Source: a virus. From it: a stretch of DNA of 25,122 nt. Made by a program: the position numbers and the translations under genes. The notes beneath the pieces were generated by a model. It was not told the DNA's origin and did not search any database. It was given only the letters and a program-made list of their open reading frames with translations. This document shows positions 5,467 to 19,609 of the stretch, in pieces. Numbering within the stretch: position 1 is the stretch's first letter; every line of letters starts with the position of its first letter. The stretch lies in IMG/VR virus record IMGVR_UViG_3300025674_000357, positions 1 to 25,122 of that record, one strand, 5' to 3'.

Positions 5467-5485
5467 TTTGTTGTTATATTACAGC

Positions 5486-5902
5486 ATGAGCGAACGCACA
5501 AAAGCAGTTAACGCCTTAGACGCAGCGTACTCTATTTACGTTCGCAAAAGCCACGCCGACAAAAGTGGGTATGTATCGTGTTGGACGTGTGGTAAAACAA
5601 CGTACTGGGAAAAGGAAGGTATGCAAGCAGGGCATTTTCAAACGCGAGTGAAGTACAGTACGCGATGGCACTACGAAGAAATAGATGGAAAGACCGTGAC
5701 CTTAAATTGTAAGCCACAATGCGGAGGTTGCAATATGGTTATGGGGGGCAGGAATTACGAGTTTGGTATTAAGCTAGACGAGGTATACGGGGAAGGAACT
5801 GCGCAACGACTTATATTAGAAAGTAACACGTCGCGAAAGTTCACAACGTTGGAACTGCGCGAACTGTGCAAATTCTTTAAGAAACTAACCAAGGAGTTGT
5901 GA
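5486..5902 (+). CDS. ninG: NinG-family recombination protein
   Basis: This 138-residue protein matches the pattern of phage NinG (Rap) proteins, which promote recombination by acting on branched DNA. The zinc-type cysteines are Cys32/Cys35 (SCWTCG), and Cys79/Cys82 lie in QCGGCN. Between them is the hallmark MQAGHFQTRV (His50), followed by the YEFGIKLDEVYGEGT stretch near residue 91. ATG 5486 gives the usual NinG N-terminus (AxDxAYSxYVRKxxAD). An in-frame upstream start at 5468 would add six poorly matching residues. It is the first gene after a short intergenic hairpin and overlaps the next by GTGA. Confidence 0.88.
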   Translation: MSERTKAVNALDAAYSIYVRKSHADKSGYVSCWTCGKTTYWEKEGMQAGHFQTRVKYSTRWHYEEIDGKTVTLNCKPQCGGCNMVMGGRNYEFGIKLDEVYGEGTAQRLILESNTSRKFTTLELRELCKFFKKLTKEL

Positions 5903-6423
5903 CTTGTGTAGAGGCGTTTATAAATGAGAACTACGACAAACTCAGGGAAATAGCGGTGCGGTGCGTCGGGCAAAACGGCGACGACTTGTTACAGGATATA
6001 TGCCTTGATTTAGTGCAGTGCGAAACTGACAAGTACGAGGCGATGTGCGAACGCGGCGAACTTATTTATTACGTGCAACGGTGGCTGTACCTTTGCGCCT
6101 ACAGTAAAACGACGAGGTATTATTACAAGTATCGCAAATGGAAGGAGCGTCTGACGTTTGACTACCCACTGAATGCGGTGGGCAATATGCCAGACAGCTA
6201 CGAAGAGTTAAACCATAAAGAACAACTAGCAGCCATTGAAAAGCTGTTGGAATCTTGCTATTGGTTTGACGCTGAGATATTTAGAATTTACTATCTTCAC
6301 AATCACAGCATTAATACATTGACCAATGCAACAGGAATCGGAAGAAAAACAATCCAAAGCAGTATCAAAAAAACCAAGGCGTTCATCCAAGCGCACGAAG
6401 ACGAAATCAAAGGGGCTGGGTGA
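5899..6423 (+). CDS. Sigma-70-like DNA-binding protein
   Basis: This 174-residue protein resembles small sigma factors. The N-terminal half (about residues 10-75) has an acidic GDDLLQDICLDLVQ helix like region 2 and an aromatic/basic segment (YYVQRWLYLCAYSKTTRYYYKYRKWKER). The C-terminal part (about 125-165) is region 4-like, with FDAEIFRIYYLHNHSINTLT followed by ATGIGRKTIQSSIKKTK as helix-turn-helix. It could be a phage sigma factor or a sigma-derived DNA-binding regulator switching on late promoters, of which candidates are visible at 7707 and 16940. The start is GTG 5899, overlapping the NinG stop as GTGA; no better in-frame ATG exists nearby. Similar proteins occur in Bacteroidota phages. 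Confidence 0.68.
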   Translation: MTCVEAFINENYDKLREIAVRCVGQNGDDLLQDICLDLVQCETDKYEAMCERGELIYYVQRWLYLCAYSKTTRYYYKYRKWKERLTFDYPLNAVGNMPDSYEELNHKEQLAAIEKLLESCYWFDAEIFRIYYLHNHSINTLTNATGIGRKTIQSSIKKTKAFIQAHEDEIKGAG

Positions 6424-8041: not shown

Positions 8042-8062
8042 TAGGGCGTAAGCCCTATTTTT
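8042..8062 (+). terminator. Compact terminator between the 7719 gene and TerL
   Basis: A perfect 6-bp stem TAGGGC/GCCCTA with a 4-base GTAA loop is followed by TTTTTG. It ends only a few bases before the TerL start. The hairpin could be a terminator for the single-gene unit at 7719-8036 or, if read through, could affect TerL initiation. Confidence 0.7.
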
Positions 8063-8066
8063 GTTT

Positions 8067-9233
8067 ATGCGTCAGCCAAAGACATACTACGACCTAAAGA
8101 ACTGCAACACACGCGTAGCTGTGTTTCAGGGCGGGACGCGTAGTGGCAAGACGTTCTCGATAATTACGGTGCTGTGCGAATGGTGCTATCGCAACCAGAA
8201 CGCAGGGTACGTACTGACCATAGTGCGTAAAGCGTTTCCTTCGTTACGTGCATCGGTCATGCGTGACTTTTTGTTTATCCTAGACCGTGAAGGTTGGTAT
8301 GACGAGCGTAACCACAACAAGACCGAGAACACTTACAACCTGTTTGGCAATACGTGGGAGTTTCTCTCAATTGACCAGCCCGCTAAAATCAGAGGCGCAA
8401 AGCGGCAGTTCTGTTTTATCAACGAGGCAAATGAACTAGACTTGGAATCGTACCGACAGTTGACGCTAAGAACGTCGCACGACCTTGACGCACCGTCAGT
8501 TATCTTGGACTACAACCCGTCGGATGAGTACCACTGGATTTACGATGAGGTCATACCACGCGATGACGCGTCATTTTTTAAGTCAACCTATCTTGACAAC
8601 CCGTTTCTTAATCAGGAAACGATTAACGAGATTGAACGCTTACGAGATACTGACGAATACTACTGGACGGTCTACGGATTGGGTGAGCGCGGACAAAGCA
8701 GAGAGACTATCTTTCGCAGTGACGTTTACAGCGAACTACCAGAACGCGCTAAGTTTTTGGCGTGGGGTATTGACTGGGGTTTTGCCAATGACCCGACTGC
8801 CTTGGTCAAGGTGTACGAACATGACCACGCGCTGTACATTGAAGAGTTTATGTATAGTGGCGGACTTACCAATAGCGACATAGGTCACAAACTTCAGGAG
8901 TTGGGTATCACACGGCACGAGGAAATCATAGCTGACTCAGCCGAACCCAAGAGTATCGAGGAGATACACAGGATGAACTTTAACATCAAGCCAGCAAAGA
9001 AGGGTGCAGACTCAGTACGCATCGGAATCGATGTTATGCGCAGGTACAAGTTGTACGTCAAGGACACTAGCCTAAACGCGCAGAAAGAATTCCGCAACTA
9101 CAAATGGATGACAGACAAGAACGGACGTGTGCTAAATCAACCAAGGGACGAATGGAATCACTGCGTCGATGCTGTGCGCTATGTTTGCCTAAATAAGTTG
9201 CTACGTCGAACAGGAAAATACTTTGTATCGTGA
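8067..9233 (+). CDS. terL: Terminase large subunit
   Basis: This 388-residue packaging motor cuts concatemeric DNA and pumps it into the procapsid with ATP. The Walker A motif QGGTRSGKT lies at residues 21-29. Walker B is FCFINEA at 115-121 (Glu120 catalytic). The coupling-type segment LDYNPS is at 147-152. The RNase-H-fold nuclease acidic residues are Asp236 (GIDWG), Asp290 (IADSAEP) and Asp368 (CVDAVRY). ATG 8067 was preferred over TTG 8061, two codons earlier, which lies inside the hairpin's T-tract. The protein is at the short end for TerL but has all expected motifs. The gene overlaps the next start (GTGA). Confidence 0.95.
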   Translation: MRQPKTYYDLKNCNTRVAVFQGGTRSGKTFSIITVLCEWCYRNQNAGYVLTIVRKAFPSLRASVMRDFLFILDREGWYDERNHNKTENTYNLFGNTWEFLSIDQPAKIRGAKRQFCFINEANELDLESYRQLTLRTSHDLDAPSVILDYNPSDEYHWIYDEVIPRDDASFFKSTYLDNPFLNQETINEIERLRDTDEYYWTVYGLGERGQSRETIFRSDVYSELPERAKFLAWGIDWGFANDPTALVKVYEHDHALYIEEFMYSGGLTNSDIGHKLQELGITRHEEIIADSAEPKSIEEIHRMNFNIKPAKKGADSVRIGIDVMRRYKLYVKDTSLNAQKEFRNYKWMTDKNGRVLNQPRDEWNHCVDAVRYVCLNKLLRRTGKYFVS

Positions 9234-15117: not shown

Positions 15118-15281
15118 TGGACACATTCTTTAACAACGTAGGGCGCGGCGTTTGCGCAGCAATTAAGCTATCTAACGAACGTATATATAAAGGTAGCCCA
15201 CTGTGGTTGCAGTGGTACGGCAGGTACGACATAAACAGTAGTACGTGGTCAAAAATTAAATTAGTTCTGCGCAATGGCTAA
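15117..15281 (+). CDS. Small hypothetical protein between tail tip and tape measure
   Basis: A 54-residue ORF starts with ATG overlapping the TGA of the large tail gene (TGATG) and ends eight bases inside the tape measure gene (ATGGCTAA). Its product is basic and aromatic (NVGRGVCAAIKLSNERIYKGSPLWLQWYGRYDIN). Both junctions use overlaps typical for this genome, so translation is likely. A small tail or assembly protein is a possibility, without sequence evidence for function. Confidence 0.5.
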   Translation: MDTFFNNVGRGVCAAIKLSNERIYKGSPLWLQWYGRYDINSSTWSKIKLVLRNG

Positions 15282-16887
15282 AGAAAAAGAAATACCTATT
15301 AACACTAAAGTCAAAGTTGACGCTAAAGAGGCGGGTGACAGCATTGAAGAATTTGGTGAAAAAGTAGAAAAGCTAAAGCGCAGGTCTAGCGGCGCAGCTA
15401 AATCTGCAAGCAAAGACTGGGGTGGGTTTGCTAATTTGTTTTCTGGTCTGTTGCCACGTAACGTGCAGATGATGATTCGAAAGTTTGAGTCTACCGTGCG
15501 TCAAGTTGGTCGATTGAGCAAGGGTCTAAAATTCTTGAAAGGCGCGTTTGCTGGTCTCGGAATTGGTTTGCTCATCATTGCCCTTGAAACGCTTATCAGC
15601 CGATGGGACGATATTACGCGTTTGATTAGCGGAGTCACAAAGGAACAGGAGCGTTACAACGATGTAGTCAAGGCGGGCAGCAAGGCGGTAGAAGATTACA
15701 ACACGAAAAACGCAGAATACATTAGGACAGTCAACGATACTTCTGAAGCCACAAATGTTCGGGAGCAGGCTTTGGCAGGATTGGCTACGCAACTCCGTGA
15801 GGTGCGAGATTTAGACTTGCAAAACGCAAAGGATTTAGAGCGGTTCAACGAAGCGATTCATCGTAATACGCAGTTGGTGGATATTCAAAGCCAGCAACAA
15901 AAATTGATGAATCAAATCAATGAAATACGGAACGAAAAAGATGAAGTGTCAGTCGGTGTGCTGGATTATTTAGGCAACGCGCAACATCGTCAAAATGTAC
16001 TCGCAGAAAAGAAAGCAGAAAAGGATGCGGAAATAAATAAGTTGGTAGAGCGGTACAATGAACTAACACGCCAAAAGTTAGAAATAGAATCGCAAACCAC
16101 TGCCGAATTAGACCGACAAGCAGCGAAACAAGACCATCTGCGATTGCTTGAAGCCGCACGATTGAAGTACGGCAAGGACTGGGAGTTCCAGATGGAACAA
16201 ATGGAGGAGGCTGATGAAGAAGCATTTGAGCAGGATATGTTCCGTTTAGGTGAACAACTAAGTGCGGAGTTAAGTGCAGAGCGCGAAAAAAACGATGCTT
16301 TAAAACAGGAACGACTTGAGTTTTCAGAATGGCTCGACAATTTAAGAGCAGAAGAAGCTGCAAGAGAAGAATATTGGGCAAAGGAAACACTGCGAATAAA
16401 ACTGGAAGGTATTGATGCGGAAGCCCAAGCGCGTAACGCTGGTTTCCGTGCAGCAGAAAACATCAGCACCCAACTAGAGCGACTAAGTGAGGACGGCACA
16501 AACACACAAAAAGCCTTTGCGGTTACGAGTGTATTGTTGAGCCAAGCACAGGCGGTCTCATCTGCTATTGCAGCAGCAGTAAAAGCGGCAGCAAATACTG
16601 GGCCAGCAGCACCAGTCGTAACGCCATTATTAATTGCTCAAATGGTAGGCATTGCTTTAAGTTCGTTTGCACAGGTACGTTCTATTTTGCAACAAGCAGG
16701 CGCAAGTACGGGAGGTGCAGTTCAAGGCGGTGGTGGTAGAGGTGGTGCGACACAGGCGTTAGTCCCACAAGGCACAGGCGGACGACAGCAACAATTACCA
16801 CAGGTTAACCAGTCGTATGTAGTCCAGAGTCAGTTGCAAGGCATGATGCACCTACAGAGCGGTTTAGAAAAAAGGTTACACCTGTAG
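15274..16887 (+). CDS. Tape measure protein
   Basis: This 537-residue protein has the expected layout. The N-terminus is charged (residues 1-55), followed by a hydrophobic segment (AGLGIGLLIIALETLISRW, near residue 90-108). Long coiled-coil helices rich in Gln, Glu, Lys and Ala span about 115-400 (repeated runs such as AEKKAEKDAEINKLVERYN). The alanine-rich C-terminal segment (ALSSFAQVRSIL region, AVSSAIAAAVKAAANTGPAA) and a Gly/Gln-rich tail follow. By the usual rule of about 0.15 nm per residue, the tail would be near 80 nm. A non-contractile flexible tail is most likely because no sheath is seen. The gene ends the tail module, just before the promoter at 16918. Confidence 0.85.
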   Translation: MAKEKEIPINTKVKVDAKEAGDSIEEFGEKVEKLKRRSSGAAKSASKDWGGFANLFSGLLPRNVQMMIRKFESTVRQVGRLSKGLKFLKGAFAGLGIGLLIIALETLISRWDDITRLISGVTKEQERYNDVVKAGSKAVEDYNTKNAEYIRTVNDTSEATNVREQALAGLATQLREVRDLDLQNAKDLERFNEAIHRNTQLVDIQSQQQKLMNQINEIRNEKDEVSVGVLDYLGNAQHRQNVLAEKKAEKDAEINKLVERYNELTRQKLEIESQTTAELDRQAAKQDHLRLLEAARLKYGKDWEFQMEQMEEADEEAFEQDMFRLGEQLSAELSAEREKNDALKQERLEFSEWLDNLRAEEAAREEYWAKETLRIKLEGIDAEAQARNAGFRAAENISTQLERLSEDGTNTQKAFAVTSVLLSQAQAVSSAIAAAVKAAANTGPAAPVVTPLLIAQMVGIALSSFAQVRSILQQAGASTGGAVQGGGGRGGATQALVPQGTGGRQQQLPQVNQSYVVQSQLQGMMHLQSGLEKRLHL

Positions 16888-16917: not shown

Positions 16918-16947
16918 TTGTCATTCTGTACAATTTGTGTATATTTG
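16918..16947 (+). promoter_or_regulatory. Promoter for the small-gene array and head module
   Basis: TTG at 16918-16920, 19 bases, then TATATTTG at 16940-16947 give an ideal Bacteroidota -33/-7 promoter. Inverted arms TTTGT (16934-16938) and ACAAA (16949-16953) flank the -7 box with the same 10-base spacing as the early promoter; 19 of the 20 core bases TTTGTGTATATTTGYACAAA match between the two sites, with one C/T difference. Transcription would begin near 16952-16956, which is the first base region of the repeated 17-base leader. Confidence 0.82.
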
Positions 16948-16964
16948 TACAAAACAACAGAGAT

Positions 16965-17210
16965 ATGGTTATCAGCATTAAAGGATTAACGTATAACGAG
17001 GTCACGGATTTCTTTGAAAGCTACGATGCAGGCGAAGGTGACATGGACATTTTCATTAACGACCTTGGATACGTAGATGCTGCAAGAGGTGATACGCGAC
17101 CTTTTGTCGAAATTGAAGTTAACGACCCGAGCGAGGAGGACTATTTAATCGACGTTGCAGAAAGCCTTGAGTACGAAGAACCTGATGCAGAAATTGAATT
17201 TATCGGATAA
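16965..17210 (+). CDS. Small, very acidic protein A, first gene of the leader array
   Basis: This 81-residue protein has about 24 Asp/Glu against three Lys/Arg, an estimated net charge near -21. The predicted order is strand (VISIKGL), helix (TYNEVTDFFESY), strand, then a segment rich in acidic residues ending EIEFIG. Upstream in-frame codons exist (TTG 16935), but ATG 16965 lies in the exact 17-base leader and follows the predicted transcription start, which makes it the start. No family is recognised. Extreme acidity in a small, highly expressed-looking phage protein is compatible with a nucleic-acid mimic or an ion-binding structural component. Neither is shown. Confidence 0.75.
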   Translation: MVISIKGLTYNEVTDFFESYDAGEGDMDIFINDLGYVDAARGDTRPFVEIEVNDPSEEDYLIDVAESLEYEEPDAEIEFIG

Positions 17211-17221
17211 ACAACAGAGAT

Positions 17222-17461
17222 ATGGATTACGTAAGACGATTTGAACAAGCCTTTGATGTGGAGAAAATTGCTGAGTTGTATGATAGAGGCTTTTTCTATA
17301 GGCTAACAAGTATGGCAAATTTTGCGCAAGAATTAGGCATTGATATTCGAGAAGTGACAAATGCCATTTACGACATTGAAGCCGTGTATAATATTTTGCT
17401 AGAAGTTGATTCGTATAAAGACGTTGTAATCAACCCATACGGATTTTCATACACCGACTAA
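17222..17461 (+). CDS. Small acidic protein B of the leader array
   Basis: This 79-residue protein is mostly helical in the first two thirds (MDYVRRFEQAFDVEKIAELYD, MANFAQELGIDIREV, YDIEAVYNILL) and ends with a beta-like VVINPYGFSYTD. Estimated net charge is near -8, less acidic than its neighbours. The 17-base leader overlaps the stop of gene A. The helical layout differs from genes D, E and F, so it is not obviously their paralogue. No function is recognised. Confidence 0.72.
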   Translation: MDYVRRFEQAFDVEKIAELYDRGFFYRLTSMANFAQELGIDIREVTNAIYDIEAVYNILLEVDSYKDVVINPYGFSYTD

Positions 17462-17472
17462 ACAACAGAGAT

Positions 17473-17691
17473 ATGGTAGCTAAAGACGTTGTTGGTTTAT
17501 TAAAAGAAATGTGGTACGACACGGTTGTGTTGGGCAATGAAGTAACATTAATTGATTACTATGCGTCAGACTACAATATGTTAGACATTGACGTAATCAC
17601 TGATGACCTAGATTATTATCATAGTTTGAAGGAGGGAATTGATTACGACTTGTCTTTTGACGGTGATGACCTGCTAATCATTTTTAACTAA
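17473..17691 (+). CDS. Small, very acidic protein C of the leader array
   Basis: This 72-residue protein has about 14 Asp and three Glu against three Lys. A short N-terminal helix (KDVVGLLKEMWYD) is followed by a strand pair (VVLGNEVTLIDYY), an acidic helix-like segment (DVITDDLDYYHSLKEG) and a C-terminal hairpin (YDLSFDGDDLLIIFN). The final GDD-type turn and LIIFN strand recur in general form in the product of the gene at 18172 (VDSRDIFIDFTN). It carries the repeated leader. Confidence 0.72.
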   Translation: MVAKDVVGLLKEMWYDTVVLGNEVTLIDYYASDYNMLDIDVITDDLDYYHSLKEGIDYDLSFDGDDLLIIFN

Positions 17692-17702
17692 ACAACAGAG
17701 AT

Positions 17703-17936
17703 ATGGATTACACAAAACAAGAACGCGCTGATTTACAACGTGAATTAGATTATTACGGAGTAGAGATGACTCTTATACGAGCGAACGGTGACTATTTTGT
17801 GGCTGACATTGAGGATATGCGAGGCGCATCAATCGACGAGGACGGTTTTACAGAAGTGCTAGAAGAAGTTGGCTTGCGTTTAATTGATTGGAAACAGCAC
17901 GACCGCGATTACGCAACAATTACAGCAGGCATTTAA
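17703..17936 (+). CDS. Small acidic protein D of the leader array
   Basis: This 77-residue protein has helix (KQERADLQRELDYYG), strand (VEMTLIRANGDYFVADIE), then an acidic loop (SIDEDG) and helix (FTEVLEEVG), ending in a strand-like LRLIDW segment. Estimated net charge is near -11. The helix-YYG-strand-NGD-strand order is shared with the products of genes E and F (LQTYG...EEGDAYY and MQLYG...SRGRI). This may indicate a diverged tandem family. It carries the repeated leader. Confidence 0.72.
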   Translation: MDYTKQERADLQRELDYYGVEMTLIRANGDYFVADIEDMRGASIDEDGFTEVLEEVGLRLIDWKQHDRDYATITAGI

Positions 17937-17947
17937 ACAACAGAGAT

Positions 17948-18169
17948 ATGGGGTACATATATAAAGACAGTTTAGAAGACGTAGTGGACGCTTTGCAGAC
18001 ATACGGATACGACGTATTTTCTGCGATTGAAGAAGGCGATGCGTACTACGTTATTGTCAATGGTCGAGACGTGCATTACTTGCTCGATGATTTGTTCCCC
18101 GACTTTGAATCCATTCCTACTGGGTACGTAGACGGCGACGGTGTAGAATACAAAATCACAGAGTACTAA
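17948..18169 (+). CDS. Small, very acidic protein E of the leader array
   Basis: This 73-residue protein has about 17 Asp/Glu against three Lys/Arg. It shows helix (DSLEDVVDALQTYGYDV), strand, turn EEGD, strand (AYYVIVNGRDV), then DDLFPDFESIPTGY and a C-terminal strand (GVEYKITEY). ATG 17948 is defined by the exact 17-base leader; a longer in-frame reading from 17888 would overlap gene D and lose the leader logic. It resembles D and F in its first half. Confidence 0.72.
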   Translation: MGYIYKDSLEDVVDALQTYGYDVFSAIEEGDAYYVIVNGRDVHYLLDDLFPDFESIPTGYVDGDGVEYKITEY

Positions 18170-18171
18170 AG

Positions 18172-18456
18172 ATGAGGTTCAACGATAAACAACTACGGAT
18201 GATTGAAGAAATCATCTTAGACACAATGCAATTGTACGGAATTAGTGGAAATTTAGAAATGGACAGCCGCGGGCGTATACAGTCATTTCGTGTTTTTGAC
18301 TACACGTACAAAGAAAGCGTAATCGGTCATAATGAAATTAATGAGTTTGCCGCAGATTTAGAAGAGAGCGTTCAAGATTACTTGTCGCTTGCTACTTACT
18401 ACGATGTCCACGTCATGGTTGACAGCCGTGACATTTTCATTGACTTTACGAATTAA
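18172..18456 (+). CDS. Acidic protein F, the only array gene without the leader
   Basis: This 94-residue protein has two N-terminal helices (KQLRMIEEIILDTMQLYG), strands around GNLEMDSRGRIQSFRVFDY, a central acidic helix (NEINEFAADLEESVQDY) and a C-terminal hairpin (DVHVMVDSRDIFIDFTN). Estimated net charge is near -10. It starts only two bases after the TAA of E (TAAAGATG) and lacks the 17-base repeat, so it is probably translated by coupling to E. Length and layout suggest it belongs to the same loose structural family. Confidence 0.7.
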   Translation: MRFNDKQLRMIEEIILDTMQLYGISGNLEMDSRGRIQSFRVFDYTYKESVIGHNEINEFAADLEESVQDYLSLATYYDVHVMVDSRDIFIDFTN

Positions 18457-18467
18457 ACAACAGAGAT

Positions 18468-18629
18468 ATGGATTCACGAGAAGTACGACACCTAATTAGT
18501 GAGGCGGTTCAGGCGATGGATGCCTATTTGGAAATTTACGCCCCCAATATGGACAACGCAGACTTTAGAAATTGCGAAGATTTTATACTTGCGGCTGGGG
18601 AAGCACGTCGAGCATTGAACCGTTACTAA
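18468..18629 (+). CDS. Small helical protein G of the leader array
   Basis: This 53-residue ORF begins at the ATG of leader copy six and ends at the TAA overlapping leader copy seven. The product is helical (DSREVRHLISEAVQAMDAYLEIYA, then FRNCEDFILAAGEARRALNRY) and close to neutral overall, unlike most array members. Exact leaders on both ends strongly support it as a real gene. No family is recognised. Confidence 0.7.
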   Translation: MDSREVRHLISEAVQAMDAYLEIYAPNMDNADFRNCEDFILAAGEARRALNRY

Positions 18630-18640
18630 ACAACAGAGAT

Positions 18641-19609
18641 ATGGCAGAACGCAAACTGATTGAATTACTTATTGAAGACGAGGCTGATGTAGCGGTAGAA
18701 GCTATCAGCCTTGTGAAGTTTCCTGCCATCGAGAGTAACTTCATTTTCTTCTCTAAGCAAGGCAAGAAGAAAGAGATGGTTTCGCTGGCTAGCATCGAGG
18801 ATGAAGACCAGCGTATGCTTATTGGTGCAGCGCTAATTCCTGACAAACATATCCCGCGCTACGACGAGTTTAGCGACGAAGAATACGACGTTTATTTTTC
18901 TAAGTCTACGGTCAAGTTGGCGGCTGAGATGTTTTTGAAGCAGAACCGCACAAACGACCACACGTTTGAGCATCAGGAAAACGTAGACAATGTGCACGTA
19001 GTCGAGTCGTGGCTTGTGACTAATCCAGAGATGGACAAGTCAAAGCATTACGGTTTGTCTGTTCCTGAAGGTACGTGGATGGTTCGCGTTCACGTAGCTA
19101 ACGACGATATGTGGAAATTTGTCAAAGAACAAGAAGTGCAGGGTTTTAGCATTGAGGGTTACTTTGTAGACAAACTAGAAAACATGAGTAAGCGCACGAA
19201 TCCAATGATGGACACACTTATTGAAATTAAAAACCTGCTTTTAGGCAAGCGTAAGTTGTACGCGGAAGCCAAGTTAGAAGACGGTCAGATGATTGTTACC
19301 GAGGCAGAAGAATTTGCTGCTGGCGTAGAGGTAAAGACGATTGACGAGGAAGGCAACCCAACGGACATTAAGGACGGCAAGTACACTACCGAAGGCGGTG
19401 TTGAATTAGAAGTGTTTAGCGGCGTTTTGACGGAGTATGACGGCGAGGTAAAAGAGGTAGAAGAACAAGCAGAAGAAGCTGAGAAAACAGAGATGGCTCG
19501 GCAAGTAGCATTTAAAAAGGAGGTGGTTAAACATCGCTTGGCTTTGCGCGAAATGGTCAAAAAAGAGTTTGGTAGTATTGACAATTTTAAGCGACTCGGA
19601 CATGAATAA
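18641..19609 (+). CDS. XkdF-like prohead protease (Peptidase_S78_2-type)
   Basis: This 322-residue protein shows the pattern of XkdF-type putative serine proteases that mature phage proheads. The core at about residues 60-175 includes IGAALIPDKHI, the Asp107-His108-Thr-Phe-Glu-His111 segment (NDHTFEHQ), VESWLVTNPEMDKSKHYGLSVPEGTWMVRV, and the nucleophile-type GFSIEGYF (Ser170). The C-terminal 140 residues are acidic with Lys-rich helices at the end (FKKEVVKHRLALREMVKK), a layout compatible with a scaffold-like domain. ATG 18641 is the start because the exact 17-base leader directly precedes it. An upstream in-frame start at 18572 would overlap gene G fully. Confidence 0.82.
   Translation: MAERKLIELLIEDEADVAVEAISLVKFPAIESNFIFFSKQGKKKEMVSLASIEDEDQRMLIGAALIPDKHIPRYDEFSDEEYDVYFSKSTVKLAAEMFLKQNRTNDHTFEHQENVDNVHVVESWLVTNPEMDKSKHYGLSVPEGTWMVRVHVANDDMWKFVKEQEVQGFSIEGYFVDKLENMSKRTNPMMDTLIEIKNLLLGKRKLYAEAKLEDGQMIVTEAEEFAAGVEVKTIDEEGNPTDIKDGKYTTEGGVELEVFSGVLTEYDGEVKEVEEQAEEAEKTEMARQVAFKKEVVKHRLALREMVKKEFGSIDNFKRLGHE

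Follow-up and report, generated by a model that had tools for sequence, protein, structure and literature searches.

Within the 25,122 nucleotides of the IMG/VR virus record IMGVR_UViG_3300025674_000357 (positions 1 to 25,122, here called the window), a run of small phage genes is interspersed with copies of one short sequence, the linker, which joins each gene to the next. The question raised by this locus is what keeps the linker constant between genes that are mostly unrelated to each other. The explanation that we regard as quite probable is a cassette-exchange array without an integrase, in which the linker provides the homology for crossovers and, at the same time, the context for translation starts.

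The linker between stop and start codons

An earlier note on this DNA had reported seven exact copies of a 17-base sequence at irregular spacing ahead of start codons, and this description was borne out. The sequence AAACAACAGAGATATGG starts at positions 16952, 17209, 17460, 17690, 17935, 18455 and 18628, always on the plus strand; further copies were not found in the window, even at 3 mismatches, and shuffled sequences contained 0.16 copies on average and 1 at most. All seven copies end in the ATG of an open reading frame (ORF), and copies 2 to 7 overlap the TAA stop of the preceding ORF. The distances between successive copies are 257, 251, 230, 245, 520 and 173 bases, the value of 520 being due to a cassette of two genes, the second of which has no leader.

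The length of 17 bases given for the unit was correct, its extent was not. The conserved unit is shifted by one base from AAACAACAGAGATATGG and reads TAAACAACAGAGATATG, that is, TAA-ACAACAGAGAT-ATG. In 185 unique contexts the information content was 1.4–2.0 bits at each position of the block that starts with the T of TAA and ends with the G of ATG, and less than 0.45 bits beyond this block; the final G of the earlier motif (+4) is not conserved in other arrays (A 0.44, G 0.39). A role of the internal linkers as promoters was rejected, because the conserved block stops on the ATG.

In viral contigs, scans for the exact pattern detected 50 and 66 stretches, many of them with several copies, and curation left 48 array loci with 281 cassette starts. 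In these loci the arrays mostly adjoin the prohead-protease gene, the linker starts on TAA in 235 of 267 cases, and the gap between the stop of an array cassette and a further linker behind it is 0 in 200 cases. Positional conservation in relatives, which had been proposed as the check on the leader, was thus found, the linker being kept in the 48 loci. In 84,980 prokaryote genomes (257 Gb), 33 single matches occurred, which is approximately the chance level for a 17-mer, and the same scan gave L105, an array-bearing phage contig that had been mis-binned. The linker is therefore not a host element.

Reassortment of cassettes and linker dialects

The order of the cassette families varies between phages, and family C3, which opens the array in the window, has 8 different right-hand neighbour families. 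Cassettes with 93–100% DNA identity are flanked by unrelated neighbours in different phages. For cassettes of the window, both neighbours differ in the case of C21 (100% DNA identity to its counterparts in loci L012 and L050) and of C10 (98% in L022, L045 and L054), and the first gene of C28 (99% in L012 and L050) likewise has other neighbours there. At the junctions of shared cassettes (44 left, 27 right) the mean identity was 0.26–0.29 (background) at some distance outside, 0.95–0.96 in the linker and 0.97–0.98 in the cassette. Inside the arrays, 129 of the 142 ends of homology blocks were located at most 5 nt from a linker edge, where about 4–5% would be expected by chance (11-nt window, unit of about 245 nt). 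The claim that the leader itself is conserved and copied and the genes are not was confirmed by these arrays in relatives. An aside of the earlier note on recent copying or conversion came nearer to the truth than its headline of a leader driving the genes. Recombination is the predominant signal, with homology blocks that begin and end at the linker edges.

Entirely different arrays were detected on backbones with 94–98% identity, for example in the window and L012 or in L016 and L039. The arrays of the window and L012 have only C21 and C28 in common, in opposite order, and the identity of their right-hand backbones resumes with the first base of linker 7, at 18627. A single event was captured in the comparison of L161 and L186 (1595 matches, 0 mismatches around one array), which differ by one indel of 242 bp comprising one cassette and one linker; it concerns another group, whose sister array has the linker ACTAATAAAAAGAATATG. 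Insertion of one cassette was also considered for L012 and L050 and was rejected, the copies of C12 being only 70% alike, so that a block between two linkers was replaced. Some contigs end in or beside a linker copy (L018/L031 of 3300022200_000018, L021, L040, L191 and L189). These ends look as though the assembly graph forked at such points, and they suggest alternative cassettes behind one linker within a single sample.

Following the homologues of C3 led to arrays with other linkers, TAAAACAACTTAAAGATG (D2) and TAAACCACAACGATATG (D3), which together with the linker of the window (D1) make three dialects. No locus has an array of more than one among D1, D2 and D3. In L033 most leaders read TAAACCACAGAGATATG, which is intermediate between D1 and D3. 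Homologous cassettes occur across dialects with up to 77% protein identity. Cassettes with at least 90% DNA identity were common to 25 of 222 pairs within a dialect but to none of 339 pairs between dialects, and none of 5000 label permutations gave a value as low (34 dereplicated genome clusters, for which the single-linkage dereplication is coarse). Among pairs of backbones with less than 35% identity, the numbers were 12 of 60 and 0 of 112, respectively, and D1 backbones down to 25–30% identity have cassettes with 98% identity in common. Leader-blind protein searches for C4 and C6 gave D1-array contigs only; therefore, the dialect effect is not explained by finding the loci through their linkers. 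Furthermore, D2 phages (L166, L169, L172, L187 and others) have an additional array, in most cases located 3' of the protease gene, whose linker, (C)TAATAAAAAGAAT-ATG, is distinct from the D2 linker of their first array. Thus, two linkers function together within a single host.

At the level of sequence comparison, these data demonstrate precise boundaries at the linker, reassortment, one captured gain or loss and sharing limited by dialect; they likewise demonstrate that cassettes move as units of gene plus linker and that linker identity predicts sharing. They strongly support the linker as the homology in which crossovers would take place. Each exchanged unit would consist of one small gene without a promoter and the linker behind it, whose TAA would be the stop of this gene and whose ATG would be the start of the next one. 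In the window, the array would be transcribed from one promoter at its head through to the prohead protease gene. During co-infection, crossovers within identical 17-base linkers would insert, delete or replace one or several cassettes. Because the linker holds both the stop and the start codon, any crossover in it would keep frame and spacing; therefore, selection would tolerate nearly every product, and cassettes would circulate in a pool across very divergent backbones with the same dialect. The crossovers are probably performed by ordinary homologous recombination (host RecA together with phage NinG/Rap) and not by a dedicated site-specific enzyme, and the linker may serve also as context for translation start and re-initiation. 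The very acidic cassette proteins are presumably accessory factors of host takeover or counter-defence under diversifying selection. More tentatively, the linkers may act as addresses: phages of the same dialect, however distant, would use one pool of accessory genes, and other dialects, even in close relatives or in the second array of the same genome, would be excluded, possibly by an unrecognised linker-reading recombinase.

Other explanations and points against exchange at the linker

The dialect effect could instead be caused by separation of hosts or habitats, if phages of the same host clade share cassettes and have a linker in common only by coincidence. In agreement with this, D3 forms a single clade in both backbone trees. 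D1, however, does not: at least 3 changes are forced on the protease tree and at least 2 on that of the structural protein, and the D2 rows are nested next to D1. In addition, the very distant backbones mentioned above share almost identical D1 cassettes, and two linkers coexist in one genome. We therefore consider host or habitat as the cause to be rather unlikely.

A dedicated site-specific recombinase at the linker, so far unrecognised, would make the arrays a true phage system of the integron type. Such an enzyme would fit the extremely precise boundaries at a site of only 17 bp, and it would fit the observation that D1 and D3 differ at only 3 of 17 positions and yet no sharing was observed. 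On the other hand, no Pfam tyrosine or serine recombinase was detected in 25–26 array-phage records (the tyrosine recombinase PF00589 in 0 of 26, against 14 of 14 controls), the site is non-palindromic, and the changes occur inside the arrays and not at one entry site, which makes this explanation improbable. The sole recombination gene found was NinG/Rap, present in 23 of 25 array-phage records, and its presence is compatible with homologous recombination at the linker. In lambda, deletion of rap cuts RecA-dependent phage exchange 300–500-fold (PMC3945230).

Several observations weigh against the cassette-exchange explanation itself. Seventeen identical bases are short for recombination of the RecA type, and the annealing proteins ERF, RecT and Rad52 were not found in the array phages. 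PADLOC, Pfam and PHROGs assigned no function to any cassette (85 representatives). Dialect could be confounded with host or habitat, and at position -3 the linker has G and not the A favoured in Flavobacterium starts (PMC6847099), which does not support an optimal leader. Additionally, the array records are all metagenomic and many of them are fragments, in which chimaeras of a single sample may occur. Misassembly is argued against by the same cassette orders in independent assemblies (L016/L053/L105 and L022/L045/L046/L054), L105 having been assembled separately.

It is quite unlikely that the linker is kept only as a good signal for translation start or re-initiation and that the reassortment is random recombination filtered for intact genes. 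The linker lies exactly on start codons with a fixed spacing of 11–12 nt between stop and start, and its placement closely resembles that of the SAS repeats of mycobacteriophages. For starts in Bacteroidota, A at -3, -6, -12 and -13 promotes initiation in Flavobacterium johnsoniae, and the A at -6, -11, -12 and -13 of the linker fits such positive positions (PMC6847099). Against this stand the G at -3 and the lack of pairing with 16S rRNA. Complementarity to the latter, a check suggested in the earlier note, was no better than in shuffles: the anti-Shine-Dalgarno duplex reached -2.9 kcal/mol for D1, -0.1 for D2 and -2.0 for D3 in comparison to -18.6 for a strong Shine-Dalgarno (SD) sequence, and 26% of the shuffles matched D1 (16S 3' tail taken from general knowledge). 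A phage-wide translation-initiation element, which that note had suggested, found no support as the main explanation; other genes of the window, including a capsid-like gene, and the second gene of C28 start without a linker, and two different linkers are present in one genome. Moreover, the linkers that serve homologous cassettes differ between dialects and between the two arrays of one genome, and the observed correspondence of cassette sharing with linker identity would not be expected from a role in translation alone. A contribution of the linker to translation starts or to the coupling of stop and start is plausible.

The ORFs between the linkers mostly encode 43–112 amino acids (aa), with an occasional gene of about 270 aa, and fall into 85–90 families with a median isoelectric point of 4.05 and a charge of -11. 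The C5 family (L032, L034, L038, L060 and L070; 268–273 aa) is serine/threonine-rich and decoration-like and travels as a cassette. A convincing Pfam match was obtained for 1 of 85 family representatives (DUF3846), and 4 of the 85 match PHROGs, all of unknown function. A model of C3 is ferredoxin-like and has a specific match neither in PDB (best E 0.02) nor in BFVD (best E 0.04), and the predicted structure of C2 is poor (pLDDT 54). Three cassettes, two small and one larger, had no match in a search of cultured phages. In C28, the second gene follows TAAAG-ATG and is not preceded by a linker; the L012 counterpart of this cassette is 99% identical in its first gene and differs in its second. 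In profile searches most families were unrelated and few showed significant mutual similarity, the E-values for remote links being rough, and the genes between the copies are thus for the most part not the diverged duplicates that had been assumed. An origin of the arrays from a single gene and its leader, duplicated in tandem and followed by divergence of the genes, is very improbable, since so few of the many families are significantly alike and the same families stand in different orders in different phages, even though weak profile similarity links a few family pairs and the proteins are all small and acidic.

The array in its phage and in comparison to known systems

Table 1. Positions of the linker copies, cassettes and further features in the window.
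Feature	Position	Strand	Remarks
NinG/Rap-like DNA-junction endonuclease	5468..5902	+	phrog_5034, E 4.7e-19
Terminase	8061-9233		
Structural gene, 537 aa, weakly tape-measure-like	15274..16887	+	backbone, upstream of array; phrog_24676, E 1.3e-7
Putative array promoter	16918..16947	+	from sequence; TTG(16918)-N19-TATATTTG(16940-16947), few bases 5' of copy 1
Linker copy 1	16951..16967	+	AAAACAACAGAGATATG; no upstream stop, promoter-proximal
Cassette C3	16965..17210	+	81 aa, acidic, predicted ferredoxin-like fold; family in 11 D1 array loci
Linker copy 2	17208..17224	+	TAAACAACAGAGATATG
Cassette C8	17222..17461	+	79 aa
Linker copy 3	17459..17475	+	
Cassette C90	17473..17691	+	72 aa, singleton
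Linker copy 4	17689..17705	+	
Cassette C10	17703..17936	+	77 aa
Linker copy 5	17934..17950	+	
Cassette C28, two genes	17948..18456	+	17948-18169 (73 aa), 18172-18456 (94 aa)
Linker copy 6	18454..18470	+	
Cassette C21	18468..18629	+	53 aa
Linker copy 7	18627..18643	+	at prohead protease start
Prohead maturation protease (Peptidase_S78_2 / XkdF)	18641..19609	+	322 aa, closes array, backbone; Pfam E 7.2e-17, PHROG head maturation protease

Its gene content identifies the window as part (25 kb) of the genome of a small tailed phage of Bacteroidota type (Table 1), which also encodes an amidase, a DnaD-like replication protein and a sigma-like factor. The 537-aa structural gene is located upstream of most arrays in other phages as well. 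The array promoter is presumably of the Bacteroidota -33/-7 type, whose consensus was taken from general knowledge. A similar TATATTTG was found a few bases ahead of the first copies in L009, L010, L012, L013, L029 and L073; part of the D1 arrays are without this promoter. The D2 arrays L172, L181, L178 and L185 show a conserved TATAGAATAGTA or TATAGATTAATA directly 5' of the first linker, which is possibly a phage-specific promoter. The sigma-factor-like protein (5899-6423), whose gene adjoins the NinG/Rap gene, might have a role in directing late or array transcription. In record 3300025652_000250 (G007, 34274 bases) the two ends repeat the same stretch of about 5 kb, from which a genome size of about 29 kb follows for these array phages.

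The nearest isolated relatives, judged by the protease (38% identity), are the Nonlabens phages P12024S and P12024L (Inhavirus), which have a Bacteroidota host; the corresponding part of their genomes is without a linker array. Their recombination proteins include ERF and YqaJ, the former of which was not found in the array phages. A protein with sigma-70 region 2 is also encoded by P12024S.

The closest known systems are the promoter-early-stem-loop (PeSL) elements of T4-type phages and the start-associated sequences (SAS) of Cluster K mycobacteriophages. PeSL elements, as PMC4503421 cites from Arbiol et al. 2010 and Comeau et al. 2014, are considered to bring about the shuffling of gene modules between related phages and, like the linker, are conserved short intergenic motifs at junctions of shuffled small accessory genes. 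Unlike a PeSL, which consists of an early promoter and a stem-loop terminator, the linker has only TAA, 11 nt and ATG, with a promoter only before copy 1, and it forms a dense array behind this one promoter with dialects that limit exchange. SAS are non-palindromic repeats of 13 bp with the consensus GGGATAGGAGCCC (Pope et al. 2011, PMC3203893). They resemble the linker in being short, in one orientation and just 5' of the ATG of genes of different families, and the upstream stop sometimes lies within the repeat (PMC3203893). SAS contain AGGAG (SD) 3–7 nt from the start and occur in the non-structural half, mostly at genes more than 50 bp apart, whereas the linker has a different sequence without SD, leaves gaps of zero length, forms a contiguous array within the structural region and is itself the place of exchange. 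Cassette exchange is not described for SAS in the part of PMC3203893 available.

Integrons are only analogous. Integron cassette arrays have also been reported from phages (PMC9892861), and the likeness extends to one promoter at the head, promoterless and mostly ORFan cassettes of a single gene, variable order and a recombination sequence shared by each cassette. In contrast to integrons, no integrase, no folded attC and no single entry site were found, and the non-palindromic site of 17 bp doubles as linker between stop and start. The arrays were therefore classed as motif-mediated modular shuffling in phages, because their working is like that of PeSLs and their placement like that of SAS, and because they have neither the integrase nor the attC of integrons. 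An earlier account of such linker arrays, of exchange gated by dialects or of a stop-start linker was not found in the open-licence literature.

How modules of phage genes are exchanged precisely is an old question, and here the junctions are resolved to a few bases and a single event was captured. As compatibility can be read from a linker of 17 bases, the role of short boundary homologies becomes directly testable by changing the linker. The arrays also offer a collection of small and very acidic phage proteins in about 90 families, which are almost entirely without known relatives. If the cassettes are factors of counter-defence or host takeover, the array would be an arsenal which these phages rapidly re-stock.

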